From Blattabacterium cuenoti (lineage in GTDB: Bacteria; Bacteroidota; Bacteroidia; Flavobacteriales; Blattabacteriaceae), in assembly GCF_014252035.1 (NCBI RefSeq), contig NZ_CP059207.1, positions 523,578 through 587,577 of the forward strand: a stretch of 64,000 nucleotides of DNA, written 5' to 3'. Shown one piece after another: positions 14,222-60,595 of this stretch; position 1 is the stretch's first letter; each line of letters opens with the position of its first letter. Position numbers and translations under genes: made by a program. The notes under the pieces were generated by a model that saw only the letters and a program-made list of their open reading frames with translations, was not told the DNA's origin and did not search any database.

Positions 14222-15053
14222 ATGATAATTAATTTTTCAGGATCTTTATTTTCATTTAATGAACCAAAGATTATGGGAATAGTGAATTTAACACCAGACT
14301 CTTTTCATGATGGAGGAAAATTTACATCTGAATCACACATGATACAACATGTCGAAAAATTATTATATGAAGGAGCTGAATTTATTGATGTAGGTGGTTG
14401 TTCAACACGTCCAGGATCCAAGTTAATTACGGAAAAAGAAGAAATAAAAAGAGTAATGAAACCTATACGTCTCATCATAAAAAATTTTCCACATATTAAA
14501 ATATCTATAGATACTTTTAGAAGCGAAGTAGCAAAAATAGCTATAGAAGAAGGAGCTGTTATGGTAAATGATATTTCAGGAGGAAATATGGATCAAAAGA
14601 TGTTTCCTATAATAGGAAGACTAAAAATTCCATATATACTAAACCATATGAAAGGAATTCCAGAAAATATGCAAAATAATCCTAATTATTATAATATTTT
14701 GATGGAAATTAATTTTTTTTTTCTCTAAAAAAATTTCCATTTTAAAAAAATATGGAGTTATTGATATTATTTTAGATCCTGGATTTGGTTTTGGAAAAAC
14801 AACAAAACACAATTTTCAATTATTAAAAAATCTATCTTTATTAGGATTTAAAGACAATTTAATTTTAATAGGAATTTCGAGAAAAAATATGTTAAATAGT
14901 CTTTTAAAAATATCTCATGAAGATTCATTAAATGCAACTTCTATAATTCACACTATAGCTCTTTTAAACGGTTCTAAATTATTACGAGTACATGATGTAA
15001 AAGAAGCTATGGAATGTATAAAATTAGTGCAATATTATAAGGATATTTTATAA
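14222..15053 (+). CDS. folP: Dihydropteroate synthase, interrupted by a frameshift at a T10 run
   Basis: FolP joins p-aminobenzoate to the pterin pyrophosphate in folate synthesis. The first 168 codons encode MGIVNLTPDSFHDGG, DVGGCSTRPGS, a SIDTFRS stretch and VNDISGG. The frame then ends just after ten T (14713-14722). The rest follows in another frame up to the TAA at 15051 and encodes DPGFGFGKTTKHN, LIGISRK and the closing RVHD. Removing one T restores a single 276-residue protein of normal length, and no other damage is visible. It may be a fresh inactivation, a base-calling error, or a gene rescued by polymerase slippage on the run. It is the first gene of folP-cdaA-murF. Confidence 0.85.
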
Positions 15054-31002: not shown

Positions 31003-31929
31003 ATGAGAAAACAATTTTTTCCTGCAAAAATACTTTTATTTGGAGAATATGGAGTTATGGAAAATTCGGTAGGTATTTCCATTCCTCATAATTCTTATAC
31101 AGGATCTTTAGAATTTCATACAAAATTCAATACAAAAATTTTATATTCTAATTACGAAATAAAAAAATATTATAATTTTTTATCAATTTTAGAAAAAAAA
31201 AGAAGAAACTTAATAAAATTGAATTTAAGAAAATTACATGAAGATTTACAAAAAGGAATTTTTTTTCATTCAAATATTCCTCAAGGATATGGAATAGGAA
31301 GTTCTGGAGCATTAGTAGCTGCAATATATGACAGATATGCAAAAAAAAAATTAGAAAAATGTTTAAAACATGCAATAATACTAAAAGAAATATTTAGCAA
31401 AATGGAATCTTTTTTTCATGGAAAAAGTTCTGGTATTGACCCTCTAACTTGTTATTTAAATATTCCTCTACTTATTCATTCAAAAACAGATATAACAGAA
31501 ATAAAATTTGCAAAAAATAATAATAAAAATAAGGGAACTATTTTTTTGCTAAATTCAGGATTTCCAGGAAAAACTTCTTCCATGGCAAGATTTTTTATTG
31601 AAAAATTGAAAAATCCTAAATTTAGGAAAATATTAAAGAATGAATTCATAATATATAATGAGAAATGCGTGGAATCTTTTTTAAAAAAAGATTTTGAATT
31701 TTTATTAAAGAATGTAAAAATTCTTTCCACTTGGATTTTCAATAATCTACGCCCTATGATTCCAAAAAAACTTTGGAAAATATGGGAAGAAGGTATTTTA
31801 AACAACAGATATTATTTAAAATTATGTGGATCTGGAGGGGGAGGTTTTATATTAGGATTTACTAAAAATTATGAAATATCAAAAAATAAATTAAAAAAAT
31901 ATACAACAAAAGTTGTATTTCATTTTTAA
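31003..31929 (+). CDS. mvk: GHMP-family kinase, probably mevalonate kinase
   Basis: The protein (308 residues) has the opening AKILLFGEYGVMENSVGISIP, the ATP motif PQGYGIGSSG at 93-102, FHGKSSGIDPLTC, and a glycine-rich third motif GSGGGGFILGF near the end, the layout of mevalonate kinase in Bacteroidetes. In flavobacteria this gene is also followed by a pseudouridine synthase, as here. It would phosphorylate mevalonate for isoprenoids, supplying uppS. No other mevalonate pathway gene is in the window, so the pathway is inferred and another GHMP kinase role is possible. Confidence 0.7.
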   Translation: MRKQFFPAKILLFGEYGVMENSVGISIPHNSYTGSLEFHTKFNTKILYSNYEIKKYYNFLSILEKKRRNLIKLNLRKLHEDLQKGIFFHSNIPQGYGIGSSGALVAAIYDRYAKKKLEKCLKHAIILKEIFSKMESFFHGKSSGIDPLTCYLNIPLLIHSKTDITEIKFAKNNNKNKGTIFLLNSGFPGKTSSMARFFIEKLKNPKFRKILKNEFIIYNEKCVESFLKKDFEFLLKNVKILSTWIFNNLRPMIPKKLWKIWEEGILNNRYYLKLCGSGGGGFILGFTKNYEISKNKLKKYTTKVVFHF

Positions 31930-32696
31930 TGAAAAAAATATATAATATGTACCAAAAAATCAGATTAAATCATTATTTATCTAATGCTGGTATTTGTTCA
32001 AGAAGAAAAGCAGATAAATTAATTCAATCAGGATCTATAGAAATTAATGGAGTTACTGTTCTAAAACTAGGAAGTTTAGTTGGTATAGATGATATAGTAA
32101 AATACAACGGTAAAACTGTTAAAAATAATAATGATAAAATATATGTACTACTAAATAAACCTAAAAATTTTATTTGTTCTACAAAAGATCAATTTCATAG
32201 AAAAACAGTAATCGATTTATTTCCAAAACTTTATGAATATAAAAGAATTTATCCTGTAGGGAGATTAGACTATTCTACTACAGGAATATTACTTCTTACA
32301 AATGATGGATTTCTTTCCGAAAGATTAACTCATCCCAAATTCCATGTAAAAAAAATATATCACGTATATTTAAACAAAGAAATTTGTAACAAGGATTTAG
32401 ATAAAATAAGAGAAGGAAAAATTTATTTAAAAGAAGGAAGAGTTAAAGTTCTTTTTGTAGAAAAGAGTTTTCAAAAAAATCAAGTAAAAATAGGTTTATC
32501 CATTGGATGGAACAGAATTATTAAAAGAATTTTCAAAAGATTAAACTATAGAGTTGATCATCTAGATAGAATAAATTTTGCTGGATTCCATAAAAAAAAC
32601 ATTAAAATAGGAAAATACCGTTTTTTAAATCAAGAAATAATAAAAAAAACAATTGAAAATAATTTTATTTATGAAAAAAAATATAAGTATAATTAA
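31929..32696 (+). CDS. Pseudouridine synthase, RsuA/RluB family
   Basis: It isomerises a uridine of ribosomal RNA. The 255-residue protein has an N-terminal S4 RNA-binding domain (about 10-65, RLNHYLSNAGICSRRKADKL) and a catalytic domain with Asp114 in VGRLDYSTTGILLLTNDG. Length and S4 domain favour the RluB/RsuA branch; the exact rRNA site cannot be told. Its start overlaps the kinase stop by one base (TAATG), and its 3' end overlaps aroQ, so the three genes are tightly coupled. Confidence 0.9.
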   Translation: MKKIYNMYQKIRLNHYLSNAGICSRRKADKLIQSGSIEINGVTVLKLGSLVGIDDIVKYNGKTVKNNNDKIYVLLNKPKNFICSTKDQFHRKTVIDLFPKLYEYKRIYPVGRLDYSTTGILLLTNDGFLSERLTHPKFHVKKIYHVYLNKEICNKDLDKIREGKIYLKEGRVKVLFVEKSFQKNQVKIGLSIGWNRIIKRIFKRLNYRVDHLDRINFAGFHKKNIKIGKYRFLNQEIIKKTIENNFIYEKKYKYN

Positions 32697-33099
32697 TGGA
32701 CCAAATTTAAATTTATTAGGAAAAAGAGAAACAAAAATTTATGGATCCACAAATTTTACAGATTTTTTGGAAAGTTTAAAAAAAAAAGAATTATTTTCCA
32801 ATATAGAAATTAATTATTATCAAAATAATAGTGAGGGAAAAATTATAGACATATTACATAATATAGGTTTTTCTTGTAATGGAATTATATTAAATGCAGG
32901 AGCTTATACTCACACTTCTATAGGAATAGCTGATGCTATAAAATCAATAATTTCTCCTGTTATTGAAATTCATATTTCCAATATTCATTCAAGAGAAAAT
33001 TTTAGAAAAAGTTCATATTTATCACCTGTTTGTAAAGGAACTATATTTGGTTTTGGATTAAAATCCTATGAATTAGGAATAATTAGTTTTTGTTTATAA
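32671..33099 (+). CDS. aroQ: 3-dehydroquinate dehydratase, type II
   Basis: AroQ makes 3-dehydroshikimate in the shikimate pathway to aromatic amino acids. Motifs of the type II enzyme are ISIINGPNLNLLGKRE, the lid tyrosine in KIYGS, NAGAYTHTSIGIADAI and EIHISNIHSRENFRKSS with the catalytic His. The start chosen gives 142 residues and a 26-base overlap with the pseudouridine synthase; an ATG 18 bases further upstream would only add MKIILF. The 3' end overlaps engB on the other strand by 34 bases. Confidence 0.95.
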   Translation: MKKNISIINGPNLNLLGKRETKIYGSTNFTDFLESLKKKELFSNIEINYYQNNSEGKIIDILHNIGFSCNGIILNAGAYTHTSIGIADAIKSIISPVIEIHISNIHSRENFRKSSYLSPVCKGTIFGFGLKSYELGIISFCL

Positions 33100-59044: not shown

Positions 59045-59908
59045 ATGAAAAAAAAAAGTTTTGCTGGTATACCTAAAAAATATTCAATTATAGAAAATTC
59101 TAAAATAGTATTAATTTTAGTTCCATATGAATCTGATGCAACGTGGAAAAAAGGCTCTATAAGAGGACCAAAAGCTTTCTTAAATGCATCAAATTATATG
59201 GAATTATACGATATAGAAACTAATTCTGAAGTGTATAAAAAAGGAATTTTTATTATCGATTTTATTGATGATAAAAATTCCTTAAGTTCCCAACAAATGA
59301 TTAAAAAAGTAAAAAATATCACCAATAAATTTATATCAAAAAATAAATTTATTACTTTAATAGGTGGGGACCATTCAATCTCAATAGGAAGTATAAAAGC
59401 CTTTGGAGAAAAATATAGTGATGATTTAAGTATTCTACATATGGATGCTCATGCGGATTTACGTCCTATATACAATGGAGATTATTATAATCATGCTTGT
59501 TCTATGTATGAAGCTTCAAAAAAATATCCATTAATTCAAATAGGAATTAGAAGTATGGATATCACGGAAATAAATAATATCCAAAAAGGAAATGTTTTTT
59601 ATATGCACAAAATATATAAAAATGAATTATGGATGAATAATGCAATTAATAATTTATCAACAAAATATATATATATAAGTATAGATATTGATGTATTTGA
59701 TCCAAGTATTGCACCTTCTACGGGAACACCAGAACCAGGAGGTTTATACTGGTATACTGCTATAAAATTTTTAAGAAAAGTTTTTGAAAAAAAAAAGGTC
59801 GTCGGATTTGATATAGTTGAACTTCTACCAAATGATAAAGAGCATTCTACTGATTTTTTATCAGCAAAACTTTATTATAAATTATTATCATACAAATATG
59901 AAACATAA
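59045..59908 (+). CDS. speB: Agmatinase (ureohydrolase family)
   Basis: It splits agmatine into putrescine and urea using two manganese ions. Metal ligands are His110 (GGDH), Asp134, His136 and Asp138 (MDAHAD), Asp214 and Asp216 (SIDIDVFDP); TGTPEPGG follows, as in agmatinases. The 287-residue length is normal. It stands directly behind speA and overlaps cmk by 11 bases. Urea formed here could feed a urease, which Blattabacterium is known to have but which is not in this window. Arginase or formiminoglutamase activity is less likely given the neighbour. Confidence 0.9.
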   Translation: MKKKSFAGIPKKYSIIENSKIVLILVPYESDATWKKGSIRGPKAFLNASNYMELYDIETNSEVYKKGIFIIDFIDDKNSLSSQQMIKKVKNITNKFISKNKFITLIGGDHSISIGSIKAFGEKYSDDLSILHMDAHADLRPIYNGDYYNHACSMYEASKKYPLIQIGIRSMDITEINNIQKGNVFYMHKIYKNELWMNNAINNLSTKYIYISIDIDVFDPSIAPSTGTPEPGGLYWYTAIKFLRKVFEKKKVVGFDIVELLPNDKEHSTDFLSAKLYYKLLSYKYET

Positions 59909-60595
59909 CAAAAAAAAAATTATCATAGCTATAGACGGTTTTTCTTCATCTGGAAAAAGTACTTTAGCAAAAGCTATTTCCAAAAAATTAAAGTATAAAT
60001 ATTTAGATACTGGAGGTATGTACAGAAGCATTGCTTTGCTAGCCATACGGGAAAAAATATTTAATAGTGATTTATGGAATCACCAAAATTTTCTACACTT
60101 ATTAAAAAAAAAATATTTCAAATAAAATGGAATGAAAAAATAAATGAAACAGAATTTTTTTTGTATAAAAAAAATGTAAAATCTGAAATTAGATCAGTGG
60201 AAGTTTCAAAAAAAGTAAGTATTATATCTAAAATACCGGAAATTCGTCAGTTATTAATTTCTATGCAAAGAGATTTTGGAAAAAATAGAGGAATAGTAGT
60301 GGATGGAAGAGATATTGGAACTATAGTTTTTCCCAAATCAGAATTGAAAATTTTTCTCAAAGGATCAATAGAAATCAGATCCTATAGAAGATATAAAAAT
60401 ATTAAAACAGAAGAGAAAAAAAATATTTCTTACGAAGAAGTAAAAAAAGATTTAGTTTATAGAGATACAATGGATATAAATAGAAAATATTCACCATTAA
60501 AAAAGTCTATAAATGCAATAGAAATAGATAATACATTTCTTAATGCAGAAGAACAATTAAATATCATCAATCAATTGATAAATAAAATCAAATAA
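59898..60595 (+). CDS. cmk: Cytidylate kinase, interrupted by a frameshift at an A10 run
   Basis: Cmk phosphorylates CMP and dCMP. The first 75 codons encode the ATP loop GFSSSGKS (14-21) and DTGGMYRSIAL, then the frame stops shortly after ten A (60104-60113). The remainder continues in the next frame with GRDIGTIVFP, the arginine-rich EIRSYRRYK and RDTMDINRKYSP, to the normal C-terminus. Adding one A (or removing two) restores a 232-residue protein of normal length; all motifs are conserved on both sides. Cmk is usually essential, so slippage or a sequencing error is more likely than true loss. It overlaps speB and precedes fabG by six bases. Confidence 0.87.

Follow-up and report, generated by a model that had tools for sequence, protein, structure and literature searches.

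The window, that is, the whole stretch of 64,000 nucleotides analyzed here (positions 523578-587577 of the 621,526-base chromosome of Blattabacterium, an endosymbiont of cockroaches), contains a folP gene for dihydropteroate synthase (DHPS) whose reading frame is lost at a run of ten T (T10) (Table 1). The first open frame ends with the residues LMEINFFFL and a stop, one codon past the run, and the remainder of the gene continues in the shifted frame. It had been proposed from the letters alone (hereafter the sequence-only reading) that the two frames meet exactly at the run and that deletion of one T joins them, and both proposals hold: with one T removed folP encodes 276 residues without a stop, so that T10 is the sole lesion of the gene. 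The read-through protein scores 283.6 bits against the DHPS equivalog profile TIGR01496 (cut-off 162.6), and the first half alone reaches 154.2 bits against a cut-off of 25.5 (TIGR01496/PF00809 profile test). Alignment of the read-through protein with solved DHPS chains extends over residues 7-270, and the motifs NLTPDSF, STRPG, SIDT, NDI, LDPGFGFGK, SRK and RVHDVKE are kept, in agreement with the earlier remark that both halves retain their recognizable motifs. No second DHPS or second folP copy was found in the genome that carries the window (G000), and the plasmid records searched gave no match.

Table 1. Positions of folP features and of other genes discussed in the text, numbered within the window.
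Feature	Position	Strand	Description
First open folP frame	14222-14728	+	168 aa; N-terminal two thirds of DHPS, matching Pterin_bind profile positions 1-149
T10 run	14713-14722	+	Site of frame loss; T8 in frame in relatives
CTC codon and immediate stop TAA, first folP frame	14723-14728	+	CTC is a rare Leu codon; UUU-C beside CUC is a possible +1 ribosomal slip site
Second folP part, shifted frame	14724-15053	+	109 codons and stop; LDPGFGFGK, SRK and RVHDV motifs
Stop of second folP frame	15051-15053
Imperfect inverted repeat spanning T10	14702-14740	+	RNA folding against shuffles, z -1.14
mvaK (mevalonate kinase)	31003-31926		In frame
aroQ (3-dehydroquinate dehydratase)	32671-33096		In frame
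cmk ((d)CMP kinase)	59898-60592	+	Second run-split gene in the window; A10 at 60104-60113, net -1 nt

As suggested in the sequence-only reading, folP was compared among related strains, using a set of 49 Blattabacterium genomes that includes G000. The gene is present in 46 genomes and intact in 44 of them; the second split copy, in G002, is broken at an A11 run elsewhere in the gene, and folP is absent from G025, G033 and G036. At the stretch homologous to T10 most relatives have AAT AAT TTT TTT TCT AAA, with eight T in frame, and the nearest sampled relative, G065 (87% DNA identity), has AAT CAT TTT TTT TCA AAA. The G000 sequence, AAT TTT TTT TTT CTC TAA, shows a net gain of one nucleotide relative to these genomes. 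The longer run is derived from T8 by a codon change (Asn or His to Phe, giving TTT) together with a one-base indel, in which the added base is formally either T (T9-CTCT to T10-CTCT) or C (T11-CT to T10-CTCT), with an identical read-through protein. Since folP of G065 is in frame, the shift in G000 is younger than the split between these two genomes, and it was found in G000 only rather than conserved among diverged relatives.

The neighboring steps of the folate pathway are preserved in G000, where folE, folB, folK, folC and folA are all intact; folC is a 420-aa open frame whose A11 run is in frame, and two chorismate-using enzymes are present. In five of the 49 genomes folE is missing (G020, G025, G033, G036 and G063), and three of these, G025, G033 and G036, are the genomes that lack folP, an overlap with a probability of 10/18,424 = 0.0005 under the assumption of independent genomes, which these genomes are not. 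Thus, the genus drops the two genes as a pair, a pattern of loss that is not seen in G000. Both folK and folA are retained in 49 of 49 genomes, folK being weak in the three folP-less ones. According to a published reconstruction, the folate route of most Blattabacterium functions jointly with a host phosphatase (PMC9603385).

By comparing G000 with G065, we assigned 23 folP amino acid changes to the former and 17 to the latter (ratio 1.35), and the corresponding numbers for 33 other genes are 954 and 726 (ratio 1.31). None of the 23 changes in G000 affects a residue that is invariant in ten outgroups. The dN/dS of folP between the two genomes is 0.084/0.44, and dN is the same upstream and downstream of T10 (0.084 on both sides). 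The explanation of folP as an old pseudogene is rejected by this absence of acceleration, by the equal constraint on the two flanks of T10 and by the intact pathway. An unconstrained share of 20% of the G000 branch gives P = 0.05 and one of 30% gives P = 0.012, and a share of 10-15% is allowed, so a shift within the last 10-15% of the branch would be invisible to this test. As judged from these substitutions, an inactivation of folP older than about a fifth of the G000 branch is rejected.

Neutrality over that last interval would be compatible with a folP that is being lost, through an inactivation of very recent date or a polymorphism of run length; the enzyme would be gone and its decay not yet visible. 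This reading is also in line with the outright loss of folP in three genomes and its split in G002, and with the gain of a base, which is the rare direction of frameshifts in the genus (see below). The intact state of the five companion folate genes and the limit of about 20% on the unconstrained part of the branch speak against it, and we consider it a serious alternative but a somewhat unlikely one.

We surveyed run-associated frameshifts in 46 genomes, using 37 gene families from the 20-71 kb that surround folP (loci L112-L199) and excluding plainly decayed gene copies. The survey covered 1.53 Mb of coding DNA and yielded 53 frame changes, of which 4 fell in the 17,399 A/T runs of six to eight, 6 in the 1,096 nine-base runs, and 41, often in core genes, in the 546 runs of ten or more. 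Among A runs the frequencies are 2/12,238 for A6-A8, 6/893 for A9, 18/346 for A10, 10/82 for A11, 1/30 for A12, 5/23 for A13 and 0/14 for A14; among T runs they are 2/5,161 for T6-T8, 0/203 for T9 and 5/47 for T10. Because frameshifts are almost confined to A/T runs of nine or more, the split of folP at T10 is not a coincidence.

The same rise with run length would also be expected from miscounts, and a run of ten belongs to the kind of sequence that is hardest to count, so the run length in the assembly may be wrong, with a true run in frame and an ordinary folP. However, an error rate rising with run length is at odds with the longest runs, as all 14 of the A14 runs and 29 of the 30 A12 runs in the genus are in frame. 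Within the window, coding sequence contains 25 runs of ten to twelve bases, 23 of them in frame and the exceptions being folP and cmk, and the assembly is therefore not generally careless with runs. On balance we regard a miscounted folP run as unlikely.

Apart from its A10 split, cmk is conserved in comparison with G065 and G004. Outside the surveyed stretch, two folate genes are similarly affected in other genomes: folA carries a split at A11 in G008 (L109) and one at A10 in G031 (L110), and G009 (L111) has a split folK, also at a long A run, all of these genes being otherwise conserved. Splits of murF were observed at A16 in G004 (L117 region) and at A11-A13 in G008, G021 and G068. In seven genomes aroQ (family F23) has lost its frame at a run of A9-A13, at roughly the same codon.

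The best-supported case in the genus, a frameshift that is conserved among relatives, was found in the mevalonate kinase gene mvaK (TIGR00549 match; family F21). Seventeen genomes carry this gene off frame, at A10 or A11 (G001, G002, G003, G011, G014, G018, G019, G023, G031, G032, G034, G035, G061, G062, G064, G067 and G068), and 15 of them belong to a single clade of 24. The part of mvaK past the run comprises 236-241 codons and is free of stops in all 17 shifted genomes, and its dN/dS between shifted pairs is mostly 0.15-0.30. Four further genomes of the clade retain A10 and regain the frame through differing adjacent indels, namely G016 (+4), G022 (-2), G027 (-2) and G070 (-8), and the clade of 24 also includes in-frame runs of A11 (G005 and G029) and A8 (G069). 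Parsimony on a tree built from about 13,600 aligned residues requires at least nine changes. The second-site repairs beside A10 make most sense when the shifted state preceded them.

Seventeen separate assemblies share the mvaK A10, with compensating second indels adjoining it in some sister genomes, and a miscount cannot yield such indels; this observation supports the genus-wide pattern and not the folP run specifically. A silent mvaK would lose its constraint, and from these sequence comparisons we infer that a slipping mechanism of some kind restores the reading frame in Blattabacterium.

The direction of the shifts is strongly biased. Among 47 clean shifts in the genus, 43 leave the gene one base short and only four, including folP, leave it with one extra base. 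The ratio of one-short to one-extra shifts is 39:1 in A runs and 4:3 in T runs; mvaK contributes 17 of the one-short shifts, which are non-independent, and the ratio without mvaK is 26:4. For a gene that is one base short, the frame can be regained in two ways, through a base inserted into the mRNA or through a ribosomal -1 slip on A AAA AAA. The bias could be a product of mutation, of selection through a one-sided rescue, or of undercounted runs. Shifts of +1 may be poorly rescued, and the +1 direction of folP weakens the case for rescue of folP itself.

For folP we tentatively favor a real one-base shift that arose in the T10 run on the G000 lineage after its split from G065, with some full-length DHPS still made through imprecise copying or reading of the run. 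This reading builds on the observed split with its single cause, the intact remainder of the gene and of the pathway, the constraint acting before and after T10 and the long-lived shifts of the genus, and it would further require slippage at T10 and a sufficient yield of enzyme. Most likely, RNA polymerase would slip on T10 and give a minority of mRNAs with a frame-restoring run length; the folP message would need a shorter run, or else a +1 slip. A +1 ribosomal slip at UUU-CUC beside the stop is a conceivable alternative route but a weak one, because the needed tRNAs exist (both tRNA-Leu(GAG) and tRNA-Phe(GAA) are present in G000).

A missing tRNA for CUC as the cause of such a slip is thereby rejected, which leaves only the rarity of the codon (17 of 18,559 codons are CTC). 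An RNA hairpin at T10 was also considered as a signal and rejected, as the folding of the inverted repeat is not significantly better than that of shuffles (Table 1). Accordingly, a programmed +1 or -1 ribosomal frameshift, with a slip site and a conserved stimulating structure, finds no counterpart at folP, where the site itself is unconserved. A two-piece enzyme, with halves that are translated separately and then assemble, would agree with the sequence conservation of both halves but is highly improbable, as none of the relatives has such an arrangement and the second frame contains no ATG, GTG or TTG before 14889, downstream of LDPGFGFGK, so that a separately started C-terminal product would be without this essential motif.

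Slippage, a very young pseudogene and a miscounted run were the three explanations put forward in the sequence-only reading. The long-lived shifts under selection across the genus, as in mvaK, now make rescue a real possibility beyond the analogy with Buchnera and Blochmannia, whereas the rare +1 direction of the folP shift and its restriction to G000 count against it.

Homopolymer slippage is indeed described for Blochmannia and Buchnera, with transcript evidence (PMC3017870, PMC5009743), as the sequence-only reading had stated, and a passage of PMC3017870 cites Tamas 2008 and Wernegreen 2010 for the rescue of poly(A)/poly(T) frameshifts by transcriptional slippage. Blattabacterium resembles these bacteria in being an AT-rich obligate insect symbiont, in which a single indel lies in an A/T run of at least nine and the gene is otherwise intact and shows no acceleration on the branch as a whole. 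Core genes are hit in both cases: dnaX and dnaG in Buchnera and Blochmannia; cmk, murF and folA in Blattabacterium. Unlike these gammaproteobacteria, Blattabacterium belongs to Bacteroidota and was compared here at the genome level, and the folP shift is a +1 change in a T run of a single lineage. The folP gene shares with the slippage-rescued class the single indel in an A/T run of at least nine and the intact remainder. Because the shift is not conserved across relatives, we file folP as a gene that would work like the Buchnera and Blochmannia cases and not as a proven member of the class. Programmed slippage of RNA polymerase is known at the A9 run of dnaX and at similar runs (PMC5009743), and there too the polymerase slips in tracts of at least nine A or T; however, in dnaX both products have a use and the signal is a conserved one, whereas the folP T10 is unconserved in relatives.

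Frameshifts at runs are a known phenomenon in AT-rich symbionts, and the genus is new. The pattern in the genus, with the long-kept shifts of mvaK and other genes and their one-sided direction, is more interesting than folP alone. It might be that Blattabacterium has long kept many core genes whose frame is broken at A/T runs, almost always by the lack of one base, with one direction of slipping (insertion by RNA polymerase or a ribosomal -1 slip on A AAA AAA) acting as a standing repair and folP as a rare opposite case that works by a second route; we see this as possible rather than probable. Should the rescue prove real, Blattabacterium would still be using folP and some of its core "pseudogenes", and metabolic reconstructions in which a split gene counts as lost would be wrong. 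With 49 genomes and a similar gene order in the compared stretch, long-lived frameshifts can be traced together with their direction and reversal, and the genus makes testable both the extent to which slippage protects decaying genomes and the question of whether the polymerase or the ribosome is the agent.

Core genes that are called broken have already been reported in this genus. The pseudogenes listed for Blattabacterium of Periplaneta in a part of PMC6039017 include mvaK, metG, gltX and dnaN, the mvaK entry referring to the symbiont of Periplaneta fuliginosa, and that part names no cause. Homopolymer frameshifts were also noted in Walczuchella, a flavobacterial symbiont of scale insects (PMC3971599), where, as in Blattabacterium, genes frameshifted at runs are thought to be possibly functional. 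The frameshifts of Walczuchella were merely remarked on, and the comparison within Blattabacterium adds the constraint on split genes and cases conserved among relatives.
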